64,000 nucleotides of DNA from Persicirhabdus sediminis. GTDB taxonomy: Bacteria; Verrucomicrobiota; Verrucomicrobiia; Verrucomicrobiales; Akkermansiaceae. This document shows, piece after piece, positions 41,903 through 63,726 of the stretch (position 1 is its first letter; every line of letters begins with the position of its first letter). The DNA is taken from positions 124,001 to 188,000 of the forward strand of contig NZ_JAENIM010000041.1 in NCBI RefSeq assembly GCF_016595495.1, given 5' to 3'. Under the pieces are notes generated by a model, which saw only the letters and a list, made by a program, of their open reading frames with translations, had not been told where the DNA came from and did not search any database. Both the position numbers and the translations under genes were made by a program.

Positions 41903-44900
41903 ATGACTGAGGCTAAGGAGACAAAAGAAAAGAAAGTGAAGCCAGCGAGAAGGCACCGCTGGAAGCGGTTGTTCTTCTTGCTTACTTTACTGCTGGCGGC
42001 ACTTTTTTTGTTAATTAATGGTCCAGTCACTCGTGGTGTTGCTAGATGGGCTGTGAGGGAAGGTCTCAAAAAGGCTGAGATCGATGGAAGTTTTCATCTA
42101 GATGGCACATTGATTGGTGGTTTTCAGCTGACTAAGGTTGATTTGTATAGTGAGAAGGCGGGGATTCGCGGGCTAAGCGCTTCTTTGCTAGAAATTGATT
42201 ACAGCTTGCGCAGCTTGATGAATAAAGAGATCGAGCTGGTGAAAGCTCGCGACCTTTATTGTTGGATTGATGTGGCTGCCTTTGAGTCTAGCGATGAGGT
42301 AAAAGAGCCTAGCGAATCGACTCCAGAGGAGATTGTGGAAATGGTGCGTCCCTACGTGTTGCCTATCGAGTTAGATATTCAGAATACGACGATCATCATT
42401 GATAAAGACGAAAAAACTTTGTGGCGGGCTGAGGGTATGAGCCTCACGCATCAGCAAGGAGCTTCAGAGATTTTACTTCATATCAGTCAATTTACTGACA
42501 TTGAGGAAAAGGTGTTAGTTCAGCAGTCGGCTAAATTAGTGTGGCAAGAGAAGTCGATTGAGTTTGGCGGTTTCCCCGTGACTCACGATGTGATCTTCAG
42601 TCATCTCGAGTGGGATTTTGAAGATGCGGAGTCGATTGATTTCATCGCCGACATCCAATTGGGTACTTCTAACCTGAATGCCAAGATGCTTGCCTATACC
42701 TCGTTAGAGGTGAAACTAAATGAGGGCCCGCTGCTTCTTACCCTAGCTAACGAGTGGCTGCCTGAAGAGCATCATATTCAGGGGCAAGTTGATCAACTGG
42801 CTTTAAAAATAGCTGATCTGAAAGAGGTTCGAGCCCCTAGTGATGCTGAATTCTCGCTGGCGGTATCAGGGCTGAAATATCAAAAATACGCCTTAGATGC
42901 AATCCGTATAAGCACTGAGGCTAGCGATTCAGCACTCAACTTAAATTACTTTGTTAAAGATAGATCGACAGTCATTGACGGTACGCTTGGACTAAAACTC
43001 AATGATACTGAGAAACAAGAGTGGCAGCATTTTGCCTCTGATGTGGATGTCGCCTTGCAGCTGAAAATTGATCAATATCAAGATTACTTAGACGAGTTAG
43101 AGATCGAGGCCCCCATAGGTGGCTGGCCGAAGTTAGGGTTGCACGTGTCAGGTACTACAGCACTGGTGGCTGGGGCGCTACAAGATGCCCATGCTGATCT
43201 TGGAGTCACTGATTTTACTTGGGCTGGTTTGGATTATCAGGCTATCGATATCTCAGCTAACTGGCTGGCCTCTGAGCAAGTAGCTAAGGCAGCAGTGACG
43301 CTGAAGAAGGACGGACGTGAGGATATTGAGCTGGCAGGAAGCTATGGGATAGAGAGTCAAAATTATTCAGGTCAGTTAGCTTTGCAGTCATTTGTGTTGG
43401 ATGATTTGCAACCATTGCTAGAAGTTTTCGAAGTCGATTACCCGCTGGCTGGTCAGCTAGATTTGAGTTGGCAAGGTGAGGGGAATGTGGCCGATGTGCT
43501 TAAGAGTGCAGGATCACTTCAGCTAACTGGGTCTGAAATATTTGTGGCTGATGAACAGCCAACGATTCAAGCGAAGTTAGATGCGAGTTACGGTGGCGTG
43601 AAGGTCGTGACACTCAAAGAGTTTGAAGTGGTTCGCGATAAGCTAGCTCTGACTAGTCGCGGTGCCTGGGCTGACGGCAAACTCGTGCTAGAGACATTGC
43701 AGCTTACTGATGACGGCGATACGATTTTTGCTGCTGAGATGGAGATTCCTGCGTCCGAAGAGATACGCGACCTGCAAGGGTTCCTAGAGCAAGAAGATGA
43801 GCTAAAGCTGCACATTCAAGCTGATAAATTGCCGCTGGCGAAAATCTATGAGCTTCTACCAATGCTTCCTAACGAGCCATTGGATGGTCTGCTGGATATA
43901 GATATCACAGCAAATGGTCAGCTGTCTGATCCGCAGATTGATAGTAAAATTAAGCTGAGTCAGGTGAGCGTAGATGGATATGATTTCTTTGATGGCGCCT
44001 CGCTCGAGTTGGATTTGTTGACTGCGGATAAACAAGTGGATCTGAAAGGGATCTGGACGATAACAAATCAGAAGCCATTTTTGGTAAATGCCAAGATGCC
44101 ATTTGAGTTGATGAAATGGGTTGATAACCCTGACTCTTTGCTAGAGGAGGAATTTCATGTGGATCTAGATTCGCGCGATATCAATCTTAACCGCTACGCC
44201 GAATTATTCCCTAAGATCACGGAGGTTGCAGGTAGTCTAACGATTGAACTTGAGGGCTTTGGTAAAATCAAAGAGCCTAAGATTCGTGGCGATATTTTGC
44301 TAGATGTAGATCGTTTTGCGATGAAGAAGCGGGCGGTGCCTGAATTTAAGGACATCGATATTAGAATCCGCTTTGATGAAGATCAGGTAGAGATCAAACC
44401 ATCGAAGATGAGAGCAGCTGGCGGCGCCTTTGAGTTTTCAGGTCTGATAGGCATCGCTGATTATAAAAATCCGGAATTCGATATTACTCTAAAGGCAGAC
44501 AAGGCCTTGGTTTGGCGTGATGATTCAGTGATTGTTCGTTCAGATGGGCTGATTCAGGTCAAAGGGCCATTATCGGGAGCTGAAATCAGTGGCGAGGTAG
44601 CAATTGTAGAGAGCCTATTTTATAAAGATATTGAGATCATTCCGGTTGGTATTCCAGTTTCTCAGCCGGAGAGCGCTGAGTTGCCTAGCTTTACCACAGT
44701 TGATACTAGCGAAGGGTTTGGTTTGCCAGAGCCCTTCGATAAATGGACGGTCAATATGTTGGTGCGGACCAAAGATGACTTTTTGGTACGTGGCAATGTA
44801 GCTGAGGGGAATATTGCGGCGAATATCAAGGTAACGGGATCGTTGAATGACCCTCTGCCGGATGGCTTTGTGGTATTGAAAGAGGGCAAAGCGAATCTAC

Positions 44901-45448
44901 CATTTAGTCGCTTAGAGGTGAATGAGAGCCGAGTCACCTTCACCCATAAGACAAAATTTGATCCAGAGTTGGAGATTGTTGGGCGGTCGAAAGTTGGTAG
45001 TTATACCGTAGAGATGCGAGTATTTGGTCGGGCGAGTGCCCCTAAGACATTGATGACATCTAACCCTCCTTTGCCTGAATCCGAGGTTCTATTATTGCTG
45101 CTTACAGGAACCACTTCTTCTGAATTGGAAGACCCTGCGGTAGCCAAGGCCAAAGCCTATCAGTTTTTGCTAGATAGTGTGCGCCGTCAGGCATCTGGCG
45201 GGAAACCTAATTTCCTCACGCGGGTACTGAACTTGTCGGAAAAAATAGACATCAACATTGGCGGTGTAGATCCATTTACAGGACGGAAATTTAACTCAGC
45301 AACGGTCGACCTTGAAGACTTTAGCTTACCGCGACCTCGTCTTTTTGGTCGTTCATCTCTGGCGGATAACCCGTGGTTTGCCTCGTTTTCTATTGATGAC
45401 AAAAACAACACTCGTGGGTTGATCCTCTACGTGATCCGATTCAAATAA
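41903..45448 (+). CDS. tamB: Translocation and assembly module protein TamB
   Basis: 1,181 aa inner-membrane-anchored, beta-groove protein that bridges the periplasm. A basic N-terminus and one helix (about 20-42, FFLLTLLLAALFLLING) precede a long repetitive beta region with AsmA/DUF748-like pattern and the C-terminal TamB (DUF490) domain, where LPFSRLEVNESRVTFTHK, ELEIVGRSKVGSYTVEMRVFG and PLPESEVLLLLLTG are characteristic. It works with TamA in outer membrane protein or lipid traffic. Its stop TAA shares a base with the tamA ATG (TAATG), a translational coupling signal. Confidence 0.9.
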   Translation: MTEAKETKEKKVKPARRHRWKRLFFLLTLLLAALFLLINGPVTRGVARWAVREGLKKAEIDGSFHLDGTLIGGFQLTKVDLYSEKAGIRGLSASLLEIDYSLRSLMNKEIELVKARDLYCWIDVAAFESSDEVKEPSESTPEEIVEMVRPYVLPIELDIQNTTIIIDKDEKTLWRAEGMSLTHQQGASEILLHISQFTDIEEKVLVQQSAKLVWQEKSIEFGGFPVTHDVIFSHLEWDFEDAESIDFIADIQLGTSNLNAKMLAYTSLEVKLNEGPLLLTLANEWLPEEHHIQGQVDQLALKIADLKEVRAPSDAEFSLAVSGLKYQKYALDAIRISTEASDSALNLNYFVKDRSTVIDGTLGLKLNDTEKQEWQHFASDVDVALQLKIDQYQDYLDELEIEAPIGGWPKLGLHVSGTTALVAGALQDAHADLGVTDFTWAGLDYQAIDISANWLASEQVAKAAVTLKKDGREDIELAGSYGIESQNYSGQLALQSFVLDDLQPLLEVFEVDYPLAGQLDLSWQGEGNVADVLKSAGSLQLTGSEIFVADEQPTIQAKLDASYGGVKVVTLKEFEVVRDKLALTSRGAWADGKLVLETLQLTDDGDTIFAAEMEIPASEEIRDLQGFLEQEDELKLHIQADKLPLAKIYELLPMLPNEPLDGLLDIDITANGQLSDPQIDSKIKLSQVSVDGYDFFDGASLELDLLTADKQVDLKGIWTITNQKPFLVNAKMPFELMKWVDNPDSLLEEEFHVDLDSRDINLNRYAELFPKITEVAGSLTIELEGFGKIKEPKIRGDILLDVDRFAMKKRAVPEFKDIDIRIRFDEDQVEIKPSKMRAAGGAFEFSGLIGIADYKNPEFDITLKADKALVWRDDSVIVRSDGLIQVKGPLSGAEISGEVAIVESLFYKDIEIIPVGIPVSQPESAELPSFTTVDTSEGFGLPEPFDKWTVNMLVRTKDDFLVRGNVAEGNIAANIKVTGSLNDPLPDGFVVLKEGKANLPFSRLEVNESRVTFTHKTKFDPELEIVGRSKVGSYTVEMRVFGRASAPKTLMTSNPPLPESEVLLLLLTGTTSSELEDPAVAKAKAYQFLLDSVRRQASGGKPNFLTRVLNLSEKIDINIGGVDPFTGRKFNSATVDLEDFSLPRPRLFGRSSLADNPWFASFSIDDKNNTRGLILYVIRFK

Positions 45449-47484
45449 TGAGCATGCAGCTAGACAACGATAAGAGGCATTGGTTAGTGATCTGCTATCT
45501 AATGATATCGCTGTGCCTGTTTGTCTCATCGGAGGCAAAAACCAAAGTTACTATCAGAGGGCTGGTAGAAATGAGTGAATCTGAGGCGCTGAACTTATTA
45601 GGCGGACGTTTTGAGCACGTGCTCAGTGGCTCGCCGAGTGCTTCACGCGCTGATGATGCGGCCTACCTGCTGCAACGTGAGTTGAGAAAAGCTGGCTACC
45701 CGCGCTGTAAGGTAAGCTGGAGTTTGCCTCCAGCTGGCAATGTGATTCTTTTGAGTGTTGATCAAGGACAACCTAGATATGTAGGTGAGGTAACGGTCGT
45801 TGGCGTTGATGAAGATTTAGCCGATGAAGTGCAAGCCTACTTCAAGCGAGCACCTATTGGGAGCTCACAAGTGAAGCGGTCTAAAGTTCCGCTGCTAGGA
45901 TCTAGCATGAAGGCGGCTAGGGAAGATGCTAGTGCTTTGCTAGAGTCGCGTGGATTTTGGTCAGCGGAAGTGAAATCTGAGCGGGACAAGTCACGCGACG
46001 ACAACCCGAGGGAAGATTATACACAGGATATTACAGTCACGGTGTCTGAGGGGCCATTGTTTACACTGGGCCGCCCGGTAGTGAGTGGTGCTAACGAAAA
46101 GGATACTAATATCGTCTACCAGTTGCTCGGTGATTATACCGGAGCTCCAGCAACAACGCAGAATATTAAGGCCTGTTATGACGCGGTACAGCACTATTTC
46201 AGGGACGACGGTTACCCTTTTTCTAAGGTTGATTGGGATAAAGAGCTAGGTGAGAAACAGATGACTTTGATCTTCCAAGTTGATCCTGGGGAGAAGTACA
46301 TTTTGGGTAACGTCTCCGTAGAGGGCACTGAAAAAACGAGGCCGCGTAACGTTTCGCGTCCGTTTAAGCGCTATCAAGGAGCTGCCTATGATGACTCTGT
46401 TATGGATAAACAGCGGAAAGAGTTGTTAGCGCGTGGGGCTTTTGATTCCGTGCTTTTTGAACTCTATCCACAGGACGATGGAACCATAGATGTGACTCTT
46501 CGAGTTAGGGAAGGGCGCGCCCGAGGCGTATCATTTTTTGCTGGAGCTGGTAGTTTTGAAGGCGCGATTTTTGGTATGGCGTACTATGACCGTAACTTCC
46601 TAGGTCGCTTGTGGAACCTGACGATTGCGGGTGAGTATTCAGGTCTCGGTCTGTTTGGCCAAGCGAGTGTGACAGACCCTTGGTTCTTAGGCTCAGACAT
46701 GGATTTCACGGGGAGCATGATATTGATTTCTCATGACTTTGAAGGATATAGCAAAGTTGAAGCAGGCGTGGGTATTCAGCTAGAGTGGGATATTACCGAG
46801 AATTATTCTTGGCGAGCATACTCTGATCTAACGTATACGGATTTGTCTTCTACTGGCCTGCCTAGCCAAGCTCTAGGTTATCAAAGCTATGTAGTGAATA
46901 AGATCGGTTTGAGCCAGAGGTTAGATTTCCGTGATAACGCAATCAACCCCAAGAAGGGTTTCAATGGCGAGGTCATTACCGAGTTTGGTGCCATTGATGG
47001 GAAAACTATCATTCCTTATTTCAAGGCTGAGTTACGCAGTTCGTATCGTCAGGTGATTAATAAGAAGAGTCTCATCATGTTAGGAGCGCGCGTTGGCTCT
47101 ATTTGGAACAATGACTCACAGAATTTTCCTATTGATCAACGCTATTTTGTTGGTGGTTCAGACAGTGTACGCTCATTTCCAGATCGTGAGTTAGGCCCGC
47201 AAGCTAATGGTTACCCAACTGGTGGCGAAAGCTTCTGGGTGGCTAATATTGAATACATTCGTCAGGCCAAAGGGCCGATCTATGTGGTGGCCTTTGCTGA
47301 TGCTGGGGCTCTAGCGCTAGGTTTAGAGGATCTAGATAATACGGATCCTAAATATGCGCTGGGCTTAGGTCTTCGATTAGATCTACCCGTTGGACCAGTT
47401 AGGATGGAGTATGGTTATAACTTGAACCGTGAGGAAGGTGAGCCACGAGGAACGTTGCATTTTGCTGTTGGTGTGACTTTCTAA
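45448..47484 (+). CDS. tamA: Outer membrane protein TamA (Omp85/BamA superfamily)
   Basis: 678 aa with signal sequence (about 10-31). Three POTRA-like domains are visible (about 33-110, 115-215, 218-350, the last with ILGNVSVEGTEKTRP), then a 16-strand beta-barrel that ends in LHFAVGVTF with a C-terminal Phe, as BAM substrates do. The RSFPDRELGPQ segment is the conserved VRGF/RGF-type loop element in Omp85 barrels. Together with the coupled upstream tamB this makes TamA more likely than BamA. It ends 3 bp from the convergent DUF481 gene. Confidence 0.9.
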   Translation: MSMQLDNDKRHWLVICYLMISLCLFVSSEAKTKVTIRGLVEMSESEALNLLGGRFEHVLSGSPSASRADDAAYLLQRELRKAGYPRCKVSWSLPPAGNVILLSVDQGQPRYVGEVTVVGVDEDLADEVQAYFKRAPIGSSQVKRSKVPLLGSSMKAAREDASALLESRGFWSAEVKSERDKSRDDNPREDYTQDITVTVSEGPLFTLGRPVVSGANEKDTNIVYQLLGDYTGAPATTQNIKACYDAVQHYFRDDGYPFSKVDWDKELGEKQMTLIFQVDPGEKYILGNVSVEGTEKTRPRNVSRPFKRYQGAAYDDSVMDKQRKELLARGAFDSVLFELYPQDDGTIDVTLRVREGRARGVSFFAGAGSFEGAIFGMAYYDRNFLGRLWNLTIAGEYSGLGLFGQASVTDPWFLGSDMDFTGSMILISHDFEGYSKVEAGVGIQLEWDITENYSWRAYSDLTYTDLSSTGLPSQALGYQSYVVNKIGLSQRLDFRDNAINPKKGFNGEVITEFGAIDGKTIIPYFKAELRSSYRQVINKKSLIMLGARVGSIWNNDSQNFPIDQRYFVGGSDSVRSFPDRELGPQANGYPTGGESFWVANIEYIRQAKGPIYVVAFADAGALALGLEDLDNTDPKYALGLGLRLDLPVGPVRMEYGYNLNREEGEPRGTLHFAVGVTF

Positions 47485-55577: not shown

Positions 55578-57065
55578 ATGGAAGTTAGCCTCGTTTTTCC
55601 CCACCAACTGTACGCCCACTCGCCGGCTTTGTCTCATCAAAGACCGGTCTATCTGCTTGAGGAAAAACATTATTTTGGCGAATACAACGGAGAGGGGAGC
55701 CATTTTCACAAACAAAAGCTCGTGCTGCATCGTGCGTCGATGAAAGCCTACGAGCGCTTGCTAAAAAAACACGGTTTTGTGGTCCACTACCTTGAGCATC
55801 GTCACGGCCAATCATTTGGCCAGACTATGGAGGATTTATTTCACGGAGAATCTATCGTCGCGCATTGTTGCGATCCAACGGATCATTTTTTGCTAGACGA
55901 ACTGGAAGCCTGGGGGAAGTCGACCGCATCAGAAATCCATTATTATGAGACACCTAACTTTGTCTGCCAACAACCGTGGCTGAGTGAATTTTTCGAACAC
56001 GGGCATGACTTGCAGATGTCGTCATTTTATAAAGCTCAGCGCCGGCGACTCGGTGTGATGGTGCACCGTGATGGAAAACCATACGGCGGCAAGTGGAGTT
56101 TTGATGAGAGTTTCGAATCCCAACAACTCACACATGAAGTGGAGCTAGCTGAGCCGTGTGCCAGCGAAGCCGATGAAGTCGCTGAGGCCACTGCCTACGT
56201 GGAGAAAAAATTCCCTCACGCCCGTGGCCAGCTAGATGGAGGGTTTCATTACCCACACTCACGCCGCGGTGCCTTGTTGTGGCTCAAACAGTTTTTTGAG
56301 GAACGTCTGCTAGATGGAGGCGATGAACTAGCTAGCAAAAACAGAAATAAGCAGATCGTCTATCACTCGGTGCTAACGCCAATGCTGAATATTGGCTTAC
56401 TGCAGCCAGAAGAAGTGCTGCACGTGCTCATGCGTTTTTCTAAGTTGCACAAAGTTCCCGTTCATTACGTGGAGAGTTTTGTGCGCCAAATCATCGGCTG
56501 GCGCGAGTTTGTGCGCGGCGTGTACCTGTACCACGGACGCAGTGAGCGGATGGGGAATTTTTGGAAGTTAGAGCGGCGCATGCCGGATTGTTTTTACACC
56601 GCTGAAACTGGCGTCGACCCAGTAGATGAATCGATTAGAAAAGTGCTGGCTACTGGCTATTGTCACCAGATGGAGCGCATGATGGTGCAGGGGAGTTTCA
56701 TGTTGCTCTGCCGCATTCACCCTGACGAAGTACACAAGTGGTTTATGGAAATGATGGTGGATGGCTTTGACTGGGTGGTGGTACCTAACGTCTATGGCAT
56801 CAGCCAGTTCGCCGATGGTGGATTATTTGTGAACCGTCCCTATCTAGTGAGCTCGCGCACCATTCAAGAACAACTCGGCGTCGCCCACGGCAAGTGGAGC
56901 CAACTGTGGGACGCCTTGCTCTGGGCATTTATTGACGACTATCACGATGAATTTATGGACAACCCGCAGCTCAGTTCGATGGCTGAGATGCTGACCCATA
57001 TGCCTGATAGAATTAAAAAACCGCAGCTGAAAATGGCTAGAAACTTTCTCGCTCAGCTGAGCTGA
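55578..57065 (+). CDS. Photolyase/cryptochrome-like protein of the FeS-BCP (PhrB) family without cluster cysteines
   Basis: 495 aa. N-terminal alpha/beta part (VFPHQLYAHSPAL, RPVYLLEEKHYF, HKQKLVLHRASMKAY) and C-terminal FAD-binding helices (VRQIIGWREFVRGVY, MERMMVQGSFMLL, WVVVPNVYGISQFADGG) match the prokaryotic (6-4) photolyase PhrB group. In that group a CxxC and a further Cys after the FADGG segment, plus one earlier Cys, bind a [4Fe-4S] cluster. Here that stretch (about 56,840-56,960) reads SSRTIQEQLGVAHGK and onward with no Cys. Flavin binding is likely; cluster loss is what the sequence shows; activity is unknown. Confidence 0.85.
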   Translation: MEVSLVFPHQLYAHSPALSHQRPVYLLEEKHYFGEYNGEGSHFHKQKLVLHRASMKAYERLLKKHGFVVHYLEHRHGQSFGQTMEDLFHGESIVAHCCDPTDHFLLDELEAWGKSTASEIHYYETPNFVCQQPWLSEFFEHGHDLQMSSFYKAQRRRLGVMVHRDGKPYGGKWSFDESFESQQLTHEVELAEPCASEADEVAEATAYVEKKFPHARGQLDGGFHYPHSRRGALLWLKQFFEERLLDGGDELASKNRNKQIVYHSVLTPMLNIGLLQPEEVLHVLMRFSKLHKVPVHYVESFVRQIIGWREFVRGVYLYHGRSERMGNFWKLERRMPDCFYTAETGVDPVDESIRKVLATGYCHQMERMMVQGSFMLLCRIHPDEVHKWFMEMMVDGFDWVVVPNVYGISQFADGGLFVNRPYLVSSRTIQEQLGVAHGKWSQLWDALLWAFIDDYHDEFMDNPQLSSMAEMLTHMPDRIKKPQLKMARNFLAQLS

Positions 57066-58000: not shown

Positions 58001-61000
58001 CTAGCTGGATTTTTTCTGCATCAGCGATTTGATGTCGAGCCACGAGTTCTGGTAGAGCACGCGGATGTCGCGGCCAATGAGTAGAAGCATTGGCAGCAGG
58101 TACAGCGTGATCAGGGTGGCAAACAGTACCCCAAATCCTAACGATACCGCCATTGGCTTGAGGAACTGAGCTTGCACAGCTGTTTCTAGCAAGAGTGGCG
58201 CTAAGCCTACAAAGGTGGTGATAGAAGTGAGCATGATGGCGCGGAATCGCTCGCCACCAGCTTGCACTATGCTGTCTTCTTCCTTATCGTAATCACCTGC
58301 TAGATCGTCAATGCGGTGGATGAAAACCAGTGAGTCATTGACCACCACACCGCTCAGAGCAAGGATACCAAACATGGATAGAATACTCACTGGGATGCCG
58401 ACGATATAGTGGCCTAGCAGCGCACCAATGATACCAAATGGAATCACGCTCATGATGGCTAGCGGTTTGACGTAGGCTTTCAGCGGAATCGCTAACAAAA
58501 TGTAAATGAGAACCAATGAGACGATGAAGCCAATCTGCAAGGAGCGCATGGATTTTTCACGTTGTTCAGCCTCACCACTGAGGTTGATGCTAACCAGCGG
58601 GTGAGTGCTGAGGAATTCATCAAAGTATTCGTCTTGCAGACGCTTGAGGATGACTTCATCAGAGGTGACGGCTTTGTCGATTTCACCTTTCACGGAAACA
58701 ATGCGCTGGTTATCGTAACGTTCGATTTCAGCTAGACCTTCACCGTATTCCGTTGAGGCAATTAGGCCAAAGGGCATGGCCCTGCCGTCAGCTGAACGCA
58801 CTCGCATGTCGCGCATGGTTTCGATGTTTTCCCTATCTTCAATGGGGTAACGAACCATCACTTTAACTTCGTCGCGGCCACGCTGAATGCGCTGAGCTTC
58901 GCGGCCAAAAAAGCCATCGCGGATGTTAGTTGTTAGGTCTCGCTGGGCAAATCCAGCAGCTTCACCCTCAGGGGTCACGTCGATAGTGATTTCAGGTTTT
59001 CCAGCTGAAAAAGTATCCTGCACATCTTCTACGCCTGGGTAGGTTTTGATGACTTCCTTTAGGTCGTTAGCGGCAACCTGCAGCGCATCTAGATCATCAC
59101 TGCGCAGCTGGATCACCAGTGAGTCACCTGGAGGACCTGCTTTGCCGGAGAATGTTAGCCCTTTTGCGCCAGCGATGCCCTTCACCTTACTGCGCCAAGC
59201 ATTGACGATTTCATCAGTACCAGTGGTACGCATCTCAGATGGCGAGAGTTCAACCGCAACGGATGATTTGGTATCTGAGCTAGCTGATATCTGCACGCCG
59301 GTGACTGGGTTGTGACCGGTTGATTTTTCAAAATCTTCGCCGACTTCGAGAATCGCCTTGCCGATCGCCTCGGATTGCTCGTGCAAGTAACTAACTGGTA
59401 ATCCTTCCTCTAACTCTAAGTTAGCTGACATGTTGTCGCGCAGAATATCTGGGAAGAATACAAAACGTAGTTGGCCAGATGGTAGCAGCGAGGCGACTAG
59501 AATGAAGACGGCTATGAATGCGGCTGTGACCATGTATCGGCCCTTCATCAAGAACCTCAGCGTTGGCTGGTAGATTTTTCTAATGACCCATGCCAGTCCT
59601 CCTGCGATCTTTTTCTGAAACCTAACCCAGAGTTTGGAAATGAAGTTAGTTGGTTTTTTATGAACATCAATGTGGGCAAGGTGAGCTGGTAGAATGAGCT
59701 TTGACTCAACCACTGAGAAGATGAGGCAAAAGATAACCGCTGTGGCAATGGTGCCAAAGACGTTACCCATACGGCCAGAAACAGTGGTTAGAGGGAGGAA
59801 GGCTGCGATGGTTGTGAGTACGCCAAAGATAGCGGGCACGATGACTTTGTTAACTCCTCTAACGGTGCCGCGCAGTGGCGCGAGTCCTTTGTTGCAGTCT
59901 TTTTGTTTTTCCTTTTCTGAGTACACACTCTCGCCGATGACGATGGCGTCATCGACCACAATACCTAGCACGATGATGAAGGCAAAGGAGGTGAGTTGGT
60001 TGAGAGAGAGGTCAAACATGTCCAGCGGGAATAATGCTAGAGCTCCAGCTAAGGAGATTGGAATTCCTAAAGCCACCCAGAAGGCCAAGCGGAAGTTGAG
60101 GAATAACATCAAGACCACGAGAACTAGCAAAATGCCGAGAATGCCGTTGTTAGCTAGTAGGCTAAGGCGCCCTTTAATGGTGCGTGATTCGTCACTCCAT
60201 GCAGTGATTTGCACACCTTCAGGAAGTGAAGCGGTTTTGCGATATTCTTCTAGCAGCGCCTTGGCTTGGTCGCTGGCGACAATGATATCGTCATTGCCCT
60301 CAGTGATGATTTGCAGGCTTGCGGTAGGATCGCCATTAAAGCGTGATAGCGCCTCTTGGTCGACAAAGCCGTCGCGGATGTCAGCTACATCTCGCAGGTA
60401 GATGCGGGTGCCATCGTTGTTAGTCCTCAGCGGGATGGTAGCGAAATCATTGGTATTGTATGCCTGTGAGCGCGTGCGCAGGGAGATTTCACCACGTTTG
60501 CTGCGAATCACCCCAGCGCCGAGGTCAAAGGAATTCTGGCTGACTGCGTCGGCAACTTCGTCAAAGGTTAGATTGTAAGCTCGTAGTTTGTCCTCGCTGG
60601 GTTCGATAGAGATTTCATAGTCGCGAGTACCCGAGGTGTCGACGCGGCTGATGCCGTCTTGCATGAGCAGTTGGTCGCGCAGGTTGCGGGCGATTTCTTT
60701 GAGCTCGGCTTCTCCAGCTGGCCCGTGAATTTCTACCCACATCACTGAGTGATCGCGCTTGCGCTCGGCAATGATGGGCTTTTCCGCTTGTTCGGGAAAG
60801 CTGGAGATGGCGTCGACTTGGATTTTAACATCATCTAGCAATGTCTTGAGTGGGTAGTTCTCCAGAGCGTCGATGGTGACGGTGGAGCCGGACTCAGTTG
60901 ATTTGCTAGAAATATGGTCGATGCCTTGAACTGACTCTAATGATTCTTCAATCTTGATAGAGACACCTTTTTCTACATCTTCAGGTGTACCGCCTTGGAA

Positions 61001-61174
61001 GGGGACTTCAACGGTCACTGTTTCAGCAACGAATGAAGGGAAAACTTCCTTCCTAACGGTGGCTAATGTGAATCCGCCCCATGCGAGAATAGCTAACATC
61101 AGGATGTTGGCTACCACTGAGTTTTGGGCAAACCATGCTGTGAATCCTTTGAGTTCGGGATCGTTATTCTTCAT
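58001..61174 (-). CDS. RND efflux pump inner membrane permease (AcrB/MexB-like)
   Basis: 1,057 aa with 12 expected membrane helices and two large periplasmic loops. Motifs are WFAQNSVVANILMLAILAWGG at the N-terminus, VPFQGGTPEDVEKGV, GIVVDDAIVIGESVYSE in TM4 with the proton-relay Asp pair and SGVVVNDSLVFIHRID in the second half. Substrate class (drug or other hydrophobe) is not clear. Its start overlaps the adaptor gene by 11 bp. It is the last gene of the regulator-OMF-adaptor-pump operon. Confidence 0.95.
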   Translation of the reverse strand: MKNNDPELKGFTAWFAQNSVVANILMLAILAWGGFTLATVRKEVFPSFVAETVTVEVPFQGGTPEDVEKGVSIKIEESLESVQGIDHISSKSTESGSTVTIDALENYPLKTLLDDVKIQVDAISSFPEQAEKPIIAERKRDHSVMWVEIHGPAGEAELKEIARNLRDQLLMQDGISRVDTSGTRDYEISIEPSEDKLRAYNLTFDEVADAVSQNSFDLGAGVIRSKRGEISLRTRSQAYNTNDFATIPLRTNNDGTRIYLRDVADIRDGFVDQEALSRFNGDPTASLQIITEGNDDIIVASDQAKALLEEYRKTASLPEGVQITAWSDESRTIKGRLSLLANNGILGILLVLVVLMLFLNFRLAFWVALGIPISLAGALALFPLDMFDLSLNQLTSFAFIIVLGIVVDDAIVIGESVYSEKEKQKDCNKGLAPLRGTVRGVNKVIVPAIFGVLTTIAAFLPLTTVSGRMGNVFGTIATAVIFCLIFSVVESKLILPAHLAHIDVHKKPTNFISKLWVRFQKKIAGGLAWVIRKIYQPTLRFLMKGRYMVTAAFIAVFILVASLLPSGQLRFVFFPDILRDNMSANLELEEGLPVSYLHEQSEAIGKAILEVGEDFEKSTGHNPVTGVQISASSDTKSSVAVELSPSEMRTTGTDEIVNAWRSKVKGIAGAKGLTFSGKAGPPGDSLVIQLRSDDLDALQVAANDLKEVIKTYPGVEDVQDTFSAGKPEITIDVTPEGEAAGFAQRDLTTNIRDGFFGREAQRIQRGRDEVKVMVRYPIEDRENIETMRDMRVRSADGRAMPFGLIASTEYGEGLAEIERYDNQRIVSVKGEIDKAVTSDEVILKRLQDEYFDEFLSTHPLVSINLSGEAEQREKSMRSLQIGFIVSLVLIYILLAIPLKAYVKPLAIMSVIPFGIIGALLGHYIVGIPVSILSMFGILALSGVVVNDSLVFIHRIDDLAGDYDKEEDSIVQAGGERFRAIMLTSITTFVGLAPLLLETAVQAQFLKPMAVSLGFGVLFATLITLYLLPMLLLIGRDIRVLYQNSWLDIKSLMQKKSS

Positions 61175-62354
61175 GGCTTGCTGGTTTTTCGTTTTTGATT
61201 GGCATCACTTTTTGACCATTGTTGAAGCTAACTAATGGGCGGGCGGATAGGCGGATTTGCTTTTGCTCCGTATCTGCTGTGGCGATGATCTGATCGTCGT
61301 TAGCGTGAATGCGGGTGATGGTTAGGCGGCGCAGCTGGTTGTTGTCATCCAGCTGCCAAACGTATTTGTCGTCTAAGATAGATGACTCTGGGATGAGGAT
61401 GGCATTGTCTATCACTTTCGCCTGCGCGGTAGCTTTGACAAAGGTGCCGATAGGCAGTGGGACGTTTTGTTGGTCGAATGGTCTATCAATTTCAGCGACG
61501 ACGTAGATGACGCGGTTGTTGGCATCCACGCTGGCTTCTGTGCGGGTGATCTGAGCTTTCCAGCTGACGCCTGGGTAGGAAGGCGCTGTGAGGGTAGTTT
61601 CTATCGACTCGTTAGTTGCCTGTTCACGAAAAGCAAATGGCAGGTCAATGAGGTTTACTTCATCTGGTGTGAGAGGCAGTCGCACTTCGGCTTTATTGCG
61701 AGCAATCAGTTTGCCCAGCTGGGTGCCGGTGGTGACAATGCTACCTGGGCTGGCTGTTCTCTCGGAAACAACCGCATCAAATGGCGCACGAATCTGTGTG
61801 CGTTCGAGGTCGAGCTGAGCTCTAGCTAGTGCGGCTTCAGCCGATTCTAACTCAGCGGATGCTGCGATTTGTTGGGGAATACGTAATGTGTATTCTGGTG
61901 CGTCTTCGATTTTTCTGCCTGAGGCTAACCAATCGAGTTTGGCTTGTTTGCCGCGGGCGACTTCTTCAGCTAGATCTCTTTTTGCCGTGGAGATGGCTGA
62001 CTTCCGCTCAGCGACGGCAGATGTGTAGTCGGCTTGGTTTAACGAGACGAGGATTTCACCTTTGTTCACTGATTTACCAGCTTCGAAGTTAGCTGAAACG
62101 TCAATGATTTCACCGGTCACCAGGCTAGATAGCTGGGTATCGTAGTAGCTGGCGACAGTGCCAAAGCTAGCTAGCGTGACCGGGTGGGGACCAACTTCCA
62201 CTTCGATGACTTCGGTGCGCGCGACGATTTCTTTTGGGGCCTTTTTCTTTCGTTCAGGTTTACTGGCTATCATTTTGTTAGCGATGAAAGCAGCCAGAGC
62301 GAGAATGGTGATAGGGATGAGGAGGATGGAGAAAAGTTTCTTCAAAATGTCCAT
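61164..62354 (-). CDS. RND periplasmic adaptor subunit
   Basis: 396 aa. An N-terminal membrane helix (about 8-26) and Lys-rich stretch (ASKPERKKKAP) lead into the lipoyl half (SANFEAGKSVNKGEILVSLNQAD), a coiled-coil hairpin (about 110-175), RTQIRAPFDAVVSERTASPGS and the beta-barrel and membrane-proximal domains. It joins the RND pump to the TolC-like channel encoded 16 bp upstream. The anchor is a helix, not a lipid. Confidence 0.94.
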   Translation of the reverse strand: MDILKKLFSILLIPITILALAAFIANKMIASKPERKKKAPKEIVARTEVIEVEVGPHPVTLASFGTVASYYDTQLSSLVTGEIIDVSANFEAGKSVNKGEILVSLNQADYTSAVAERKSAISTAKRDLAEEVARGKQAKLDWLASGRKIEDAPEYTLRIPQQIAASAELESAEAALARAQLDLERTQIRAPFDAVVSERTASPGSIVTTGTQLGKLIARNKAEVRLPLTPDEVNLIDLPFAFREQATNESIETTLTAPSYPGVSWKAQITRTEASVDANNRVIYVVAEIDRPFDQQNVPLPIGTFVKATAQAKVIDNAILIPESSILDDKYVWQLDDNNQLRRLTITRIHANDDQIIATADTEQKQIRLSARPLVSFNNGQKVMPIKNEKPASHEE

Positions 62355-62370
62355 GGGTAGGAAAGGTTAG

Positions 62371-63726
62371 TTAGTAGGCTTTGCCCAGTGCTAGGGCTAG
62401 TGAAACACGATTTTTTGCGCGTGCTGCGCGCAGTTGGATGACTTGTTCTTCGGTATTGAAAACTGTGCGCTGGGTGATGAGCAGTTGGAGGATGTCCACC
62501 AGTCCGTCTTCGTATTCGCGCATGGTTTTTTCTTCAGCTCGTTTGGCGGCGGTGAGTGCCTGCTCGGTGGCGCTTAGCTGGCTGGCGAGGTAGCGTTCGC
62601 TGCCGAGTGCGTTTTCCACTTCGCGAAAGGCTGATAATACAGTGCTTTGGTAGCTGAAGTAGGCCTGCTCAGCACGGGCTGCGGAGGCGCCTAACTCAGC
62701 GCGTCGTTGGCCAGCATCAAACAGTGGCGCGGCAAAATTTCCAGCTACTGACCAAACGCTGAATCCTGATTTTGCTAGATCGCTCAGGCTGTTGCTATTT
62801 TGCCCTCCGCTGGCAGTTAGTGTGAAGCTAGGAAAGAGGTCGGCATAGGCTACATTGACACGCTCGTCGGTGGCGACAATGGCCTGATAGGCGGCTACAA
62901 TATCTGGGCGGTTGAGCATGACGTCTGAGGGAATGCCTGCTTTGACACTGCGTCTGAGAGAGGGCAGCTTTGCTTTGGCTGTGAGACTTGCGTCTGGGTA
63001 GCTGCCGGTGAGAACACGTACGTTTCTAGCGGCTTGATCGCGCAGGTTTCGCTGGCTTTCTAGTGATGACTTGGAGCTCAGGGTTTCGGTTTTTGCTAGG
63101 TCGACGTCAGCGAGCCCACCGGTGCCGTGAACAAATCGGTTGTCGACGAGCTTCTCGGTGGTTTGAAAACTTTGATAGCGACGTGTTGCTAGATCGACGC
63201 TTTGTTCAGCTGATGCGAGGTCAAACCACGCCTGCATGGTTTGAGCGGCGATGGATTGTTTGGCTGCTTCGTAGCTGGCGGCTGTGCTGTAATAATCTGC
63301 AGCGCTGGCACGTGAGCCGGAGCGGATTTTCCCCCAGATGTCTACTTCCCAGCTGGCATCTAACGTGGCATTGAGTTGATTGTTAGTTCCAAGGCCCATG
63401 TCTTGTCGGGCTCCTCCCACATTAGCGCTGAGGCTGGGGAGAAGTGGCGCGTTTGCCTTGGTCATATTAAATGATGACTCATCTAACCTAGCAAGGCTGG
63501 TGCGCAGGTCTGGGTTATTTTTCACCGCTTGCTGGACGATGCTATCGAGCGTGGAATCGCGAAATACCTTGCTGAGTGAGTCTACCAGCTCGGGTGTTGG
63601 AGGTTGTTTGGCATCAAATTTTCCAGCTGTGATTGATTGCTGGCTGGCTGGTGCGAGTGCGTCTGGTTTGGTAACGCAGCCAGAGATGATGAATGCTGAG
63701 CTTAAAGTTAGGGTTAGGATTCTCAT
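62371..63726 (-). CDS. TolC/NodT-family outer membrane factor
   Basis: 451 aa. Signal peptide ends SGC (Cys17), so the mature protein is probably a lipoprotein as in the NodT/OprM branch. Two OEP repeats are visible (about 60-240 and 260-445) with the pairs NPDLRTSLARLDESS and RPDIVAAYQAIVATDERVNVAY, giving the alpha-barrel trunk. It forms the outer channel for the pump encoded downstream and starts 4 bp after the regulator stop codon. Confidence 0.94.
   Translation of the reverse strand: MRILTLTLSSAFIISGCVTKPDALAPASQQSITAGKFDAKQPPTPELVDSLSKVFRDSTLDSIVQQAVKNNPDLRTSLARLDESSFNMTKANAPLLPSLSANVGGARQDMGLGTNNQLNATLDASWEVDIWGKIRSGSRASAADYYSTAASYEAAKQSIAAQTMQAWFDLASAEQSVDLATRRYQSFQTTEKLVDNRFVHGTGGLADVDLAKTETLSSKSSLESQRNLRDQAARNVRVLTGSYPDASLTAKAKLPSLRRSVKAGIPSDVMLNRPDIVAAYQAIVATDERVNVAYADLFPSFTLTASGGQNSNSLSDLAKSGFSVWSVAGNFAAPLFDAGQRRAELGASAARAEQAYFSYQSTVLSAFREVENALGSERYLASQLSATEQALTAAKRAEEKTMREYEDGLVDILQLLITQRTVFNTEEQVIQLRAARAKNRVSLALALGKAY

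Follow-up and report, generated by a model that had tools for sequence, protein, structure and literature searches.

More than one evolutionary change between photolyase and cryptochrome, in either direction, is believed to have taken place. PhrB of Agrobacterium (4DJA) belongs to the FeS-BCP family, in which four Cys residues bind a [4Fe-4S] cluster. PMC4619345 places the H366 residue of PhrB on the floor of the lesion cavity, with L370 and M410 packing against it. According to that paper, the H366N enzyme showed 0% repair compared with 18.2% for the wild type in the same assay, the Y430F enzyme had about 30% of the wild-type activity, and the equivalent histidine is essential in eukaryotic enzymes too. 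It also states that the Cys residues are missing in 7% of 464 family members (2015). The name "subgroup M" was given in 2022 to a Cys-less group of prokaryotic 6-4 photolyases that includes PromaPL of Prochlorococcus marinus (PMC9178010). Cys-less Phr2 proteins were predicted to be CPD photolyases in PMC9426592, whereas PromaPL is described as a 6-4 photolyase in PMC9178010. As for the flavin, the residues R368, D396, and N405 of the Caulobacter enzyme contact the isoalloxazine ring, as given in PMC12082625. Another family member, CryB of Rhodobacter sphaeroides (3ZXS), has been reported to affect gene expression (PMC3320616).

Here we describe a homologue from Persicirhabdus sediminis that has lost the residues serving 6-4 repair in PhrB and has kept the flavin contacts and one Trp of the electron relay. 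Its gene lies in the window, that is, the 64,000-nucleotide stretch of contig NZ_JAENIM010000041.1 that we analyzed; coordinates are those of the window unless another locus is named.

Gene, domains, and predicted structure

The coding sequence occupies positions 55578..57065 of the plus strand and runs from ATG to TGA, encoding 495 amino acids with no internal stop codon. The product matched the Pfam families DPRP (139.3 bits; cut-off 22.1) and FAD_binding_7 (32.6 bits; cut-off 27). The nearest solved structures by sequence were CryB, which was the top match in the PDB with an E value of 9.5e-56, the 6-4 photolyases of Caulobacter, Vibrio, and Synechococcus, and PhrB. We class the product of 55578..57065 (plus strand) as a Cys-less prokaryotic 6-4 photolyase homologue of which the repair site is lost.

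The AlphaFold2 model of the protein, made with 44 sequences, had a pLDDT of 85.5 and a pTM of 0.89 and kept the photolyase fold, and the DPRP and FAD-binding domains within this fold are the architecture of subgroup M. The best structural matches of the model were PhrB entries, with Z scores of 40.3 and 39.9; 475 and 484 residues, respectively, were superposed at 2.5 A. With the same sequences, the relative L002 gave a pLDDT of 92.4 and a pTM of 0.92. The stretches 181-200, 241-260, and 401-420 were among those with the largest drops in confidence relative to L002, and they contain or adjoin the lost residues described below; the pLDDT was 53 versus 86 at residues 181-190, 54 versus 84 at 251-260, and 59 versus 77 at 401-410. 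The overall charge gave no support to a loss of DNA binding: at -13, the whole protein ranked 10th from the lowest among 143, the values of nine close relatives lay between -14 and +5, and the catalytic part had -2 compared with a mean of -4.4.

Iron-sulfur ligands and the Cys-less clade

The positions of the cluster ligands were read from an alignment with the PhrB-type protein of Agrobacterium (L114), the four Cys residues of which correspond to PhrB 350, 438, 441, and 454. The P. sediminis protein has P348 at the first of these positions, gaps at the second and third, and Q442 at the fourth, and none of the four ligands is present. The first one, PhrB C350, is replaced by Pro at codon 348 (56619..56621, plus strand). 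The other three of PhrB lie in a loop that in the P. sediminis protein begins with T428 in place of Y430 and comprises 22 residues rather than 32 (codons 428-449; 56859..56924, plus strand). The initial annotation had stated that the stretch following the FeS-BCP signature holds no Cys and that the earlier Cys position differs. Both points were borne out, the former as a ten-residue deletion that removes two ligand positions and leaves Gln at the last. A shift of the ligands to other Cys residues, those in YCHQ or LLCRI, was rejected: C362 corresponds to PhrB 364 and C378 to PhrB 380, and neither is a ligand position. These two positions are Cys in 112 and 137, respectively, of the 144 Cys-less sequences described next.

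We aligned 167 homologues, each having an open frame of 300 amino acids and a match at 1e-25; three copies of the query and five duplicates (L084 being counted as a duplicate) were dropped. The ligands were either all absent (144 sequences, including the query) or all present (23 sequences), with no intermediates. In a tree of 107 rows, from which rows at least 72% identical to a kept row had been left out, a single branch with an SH-aLRT of 100 separated 90 Cys-less rows from 17 FeS rows, corresponding to a single change. The query stood within the Cys-less clade together with the Prochlorococcus protein L081, as expected for a member of subgroup M, although the placement of long rows such as the query is unsure according to a warning of the tree tool. 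The loop has 22 residues in 141 of the 144 Cys-less sequences and 32 in all 23 FeS-type sequences. W440, W444, and D445 are invariant in the Cys-less group (144/144), and other residues occupy these positions in the FeS type. These three residues may plausibly have taken over a stabilizing role in the clade, as far as their conservation suggests.

Thus, the absence of the cluster ligands is an ordinary trait of an already described clade and is not private to this protein. The claim of the initial annotation that the family cofactor is lost holds in so far as all four ligands are gone, but the loss is clade-wide (144/167), and a private loss of the Cys residues was rejected. The protein resembles PromaPL and its relatives (PMC9178010) in having no cluster Cys and a short loop and in its clade with L081. 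It also has the antenna-domain residues of the clade, K47, E28, M55, and H51; the deviations in this domain are Glu for R108 (Arg in 136/144) and His for L31 (Leu in 139/144).

Several other members of the clade are worth recording. The Prochlorococcus gene L081:5038-6516 sits within a mostly verrucomicrobial clade, and this placement suggests transfer between phyla. A Cys-less photolyase of Psychrobacter (L066:6001-7500) has a longer loop at the ligand site, and a loop of 28 residues is found in 2 of the 144 Cys-less rows.

Residues of the repair site and of the flavin pocket

The columns that are near-invariant, namely shared by 98.5% or more of the remaining 166 sequences, were compared in a leave-one-out manner. 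The query deviated at 14 of 48 such columns, while the next highest sequence deviated at 2 and the median was 0. Within the Cys-less group alone (144 sequences), the corresponding values were 19 of 81, 3, and 0. In PhrB numbering, the 14 lost residues are L165, N182, R183, F249, D254, G302, H366, I367, L370, M410, K422, Y430, M434, and R476. Six of them, H366, L370, M410, Y430, R183, and D254, occur in 166 of the 167 sequences, the sole exception being the query. The replacements include H366Q, L370M, M410I, Y430T, R183E, N182F, and D254A, and several of the changed residues have no known role.

The replacements are located as follows, all on the plus strand. Gln stands for the repair histidine at codon 364 (56667..56669). 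The two residues that pack against this histidine in PhrB, according to PMC4619345, are changed from Leu to Met at codon 368 (56679..56681) and from Met to Ile at codon 408 (56799..56801). Codons 179-180 (56112..56117) encode Phe and Glu in place of N182 and R183, and codon 252 (56331..56333) encodes Ala in place of D254. We take D254 to be one of the two Mg2+-linked Asp residues and D179, which is present in 167/167, to be the other.

The flavin side is largely different in this respect. The Arg and Asp of the flavin salt bridge are kept at codon 367 (56676..56678; Caulobacter R368, PhrB R369) and codon 395 (56760..56762; D396, D397), and the Asn contacting the isoalloxazine is kept at codon 404 (56787..56789; N405, N406), the roles being those given in PMC12082625. 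The proximal Trp, an electron transmitter in PhrB (W390) according to PMC4619345, is kept at codon 388 (56739..56741). All four lie on the plus strand, and the examination of the FAD pocket thus found R367, D395, and N404 intact. Two changes are found on the flavin side, M401V (PhrB 403) and Y397F (PhrB 399). The outer Trp342 is Tyr, as it is in 129 of the 144 Cys-less members. Among the other residues, Y422 (PhrB Y424, lesion binding), H365, and D179 are retained, as is Q304, which is common to 167/167 homologues.

Comparison with the described proteins can be summarized from these data. PhrB is matched in fold, FAD contacts, and W390, but the query differs from it in having no cluster ligands, in the replacement of H366, L370, M410, Y430, R183, and D254, and in having Tyr for W342. 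CryB, the closest by sequence in the PDB, keeps the cluster cysteines and the His-His pair in the alignment, both of which are gone in the query. Subgroup M differs in that H366 and its packing residues are present in all 143 other Cys-less members sampled.

The query has a phylogenetic position within the subgroup and keeps Y424, H365, and D179, and one might consider it an ordinary 6-4 photolyase that uses a different proton donor. The 6-4 photolyases are recognized by the repair histidine, where the query has Q364. That histidine is essential in PhrB (H366N, 0%) and in eukaryotic enzymes as reported in PMC4619345, and both packing residues and Y430 were lost along with it. We regard such an enzyme as very improbable.

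The changes H366Q and L370M also shift the site towards the CPD-type state, in which PMC4619345 gives Asn and Met as the counterparts of H366 and L370. In the aligned motif, the other photolyase of the genome reads H-N-R-V-R-M, the query H-Q-M-E-R-M, and the relative L002 H-H-I-E-R-L. These data could speak for a photolyase retargeted to a different kind of damage, for example the cyclobutane dimer. However, class I and III CPD photolyases have Asn at the H366 position, as does the other photolyase of the genome, and the residue in the query is Gln; Q304 is kept, N182, R183, and Y430 are lost, and the genome already has a class III-like photolyase. Retargeting is therefore, in our opinion, an unlikely explanation, if less so than a substituted proton donor.

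Relatives and partner genes

No closer relative sharing these losses was found in searches of the genus (1 genome), family (260 genomes), order (288 genomes), and class (384 genomes), nor were the same losses found among the 80 loci, of 590, that were listed in one GTDB-species scan. The residue-by-residue comparison covered the best 30 loci per genome search and 20 further stretches. Among the matches listed, including those from the 260 family genomes, none was closer than 49% identity, and the nearest named relatives were assemblies of Verrucomicrobiales and Akkermansiaceae. The genus is a singleton, with one genome among those searched. The repair histidine is present in each of the 166 further sequences sampled from the prokaryotic 6-4 branch. 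Plasmids gave 88 records, of which the best among the matches listed had 37% identity, and phage records gave no match to the protein. A viral contig of IMG/VR (L177:810-2174) carries a photolyase relative with 31% identity, a single distant match. In the open-licence literature, judged by titles and the beginnings of abstracts, we found nothing on point concerning either a member from Verrucomicrobia or Akkermansiaceae or the loss of the catalytic histidine.

A small DUF2256-like gene, recognized by motif, lies about 100 bases upstream of many Cys-less photolyase genes (L011, L015, L022, L028, L081, and others), and a TIGR03643-like gene, also recognized by motif, is often close to them. Neither family was found in the genome of P. 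sediminis. Both are absent from 36 of the 111 genomes with a Cys-less photolyase, P. sediminis included, in a count that combines slightly different draws (260 and 254 genomes), and the absence of the partner genes is therefore weak evidence.

Rate of change and selection

The end branch of the query has 1.63 changes per column, compared with a median of 0.38, and is the longest of the 90 Cys-less rows. FeS-type rows of comparable length exist (L119, 1.81; L117, 1.57), both of which retain the repair residues, so that branch length alone is not unique to the query. Against its 29 nearest relatives, the query deviated at 33 of 136 invariant columns and the others at up to 4. The sole other FAD_binding_7 protein of the genome, which has its closest matches in the class III photolyase 4u63 (the class being that of the entry title) and in plant cryptochromes, deviated at 2 of 106 invariant columns and its 29 relatives at up to 3. 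The genome as a whole therefore does not look fast-evolving, and fast evolution of the genome was not supported as an explanation.

That other photolyase (L112:628-2118, contig C9), which is class III-like, has Gln within RQL(Y/F/I)WR, as have all 29 relatives. In 4u63, the class III enzyme aligned with it, the residue is Glu. Glu at this position is conserved in CPD photolyases.

A gene for which 6-4 repair is no longer needed might be in slow decay under relaxed selection with its frame still unbroken. Several parts of the protein are affected by the losses, some of which (G300S, L161M, and F247G) concern residues of no known repair role; the branch is four times the median length; and DUF2256 and TIGR03643, the companions of many relatives, were not found, although this last point is not telling for the reason given above. 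Other data point the other way. The columns that are slow in the other sequences changed far less than the fast ones: the query changed at 78% of fast columns (mean of 74% in the others) and at 23% of slow columns (0.4%). When random substitutions were introduced into the coding sequence by simulation, 200 substitutions changed 26% of the residues, a level similar to the 23-29% loss at invariant columns of the query, and left 0.3% of 300 copies free of stop codons; the stop-free copies were 0/300 at 150 substitutions and 2% at 100. That is, neutral copies equally changed almost always gain a stop, and the gene has neither a stop nor a frameshift. The G+C contents of its codon positions, 0.60/0.34/0.56, are similar to those of neighbouring genes, and 6 of the 14 replacements require two or three base changes. 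The open frame, the codon G+C, and the multi-base replacements argue against an old unconstrained pseudogene, and not against a weakly selected gene. We consider slow decay a somewhat unlikely account that deserves more weight than retargeting.

Possible role of the protein

The initial annotation reasoned that either the fold is stabilized in another way or the function has changed. The former is plausible for the clade as a whole, and the latter is probable for this protein, but the reason is the loss of the 6-4 repair residues and not of the cluster. Among the homologues compared, this protein alone has lost these residues. The account we prefer, to which we give a chance close to even, is that of a solitary former photolyase that would no longer repair 6-4 photoproducts and would have been retained for another flavin-dependent role, perhaps a cryptochrome-like one. 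The protein would bind FAD and be photoreduced by blue light, and repair of the 6-4 photoproduct would be impossible. The redox state of FAD might then alter the loops that surround the vacated lesion pocket, and thereby a contact with a partner or DNA. Signalling as the end use is the least certain step of this scheme. A more far-reaching and more tentative form of it, which we hold as a possibility and no likelier than that, is that an undescribed lineage of bacterial cryptochrome may have arisen independently from Cys-less 6-4 photolyases, shedding the repair site wholesale and keeping the flavin photochemistry.

Some findings do not fit a former photolyase with a flavin-dependent role well. 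No regulator gene adjoins it; Y424, H365, and D179 are kept, which would not be required after a full departure from DNA repair; and the changes reach beyond the repair residues to M401V, Y397F, and residues of no known role. If selection does keep the protein, flavin photochemistry and repair chemistry would be naturally separated in it, and it could serve to examine the use to which a photolyase is put after it has ceased to repair DNA. The absence of the cluster has no such significance, being ordinary for the clade; what is unusual is the loss of the repair site.

Neighbouring genes

The neighbours of the gene are those of a penicillin-binding protein and, downstream, an NAD-epimerase-like protein. 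The epimerase gene had no match near the photolyase gene in any fetched relative locus, and the order of these two genes was not conserved among those loci. Farther along the window, one block on the minus strand (58001-63726) holds the genes of a large transporter, an HlyD-like adaptor, and an outer-membrane efflux protein, the latter two being assigned by Pfam and the transporter by reading of the sequence alone. Adjacent TamB-like and Omp85-like genes lie at 41903-47484.
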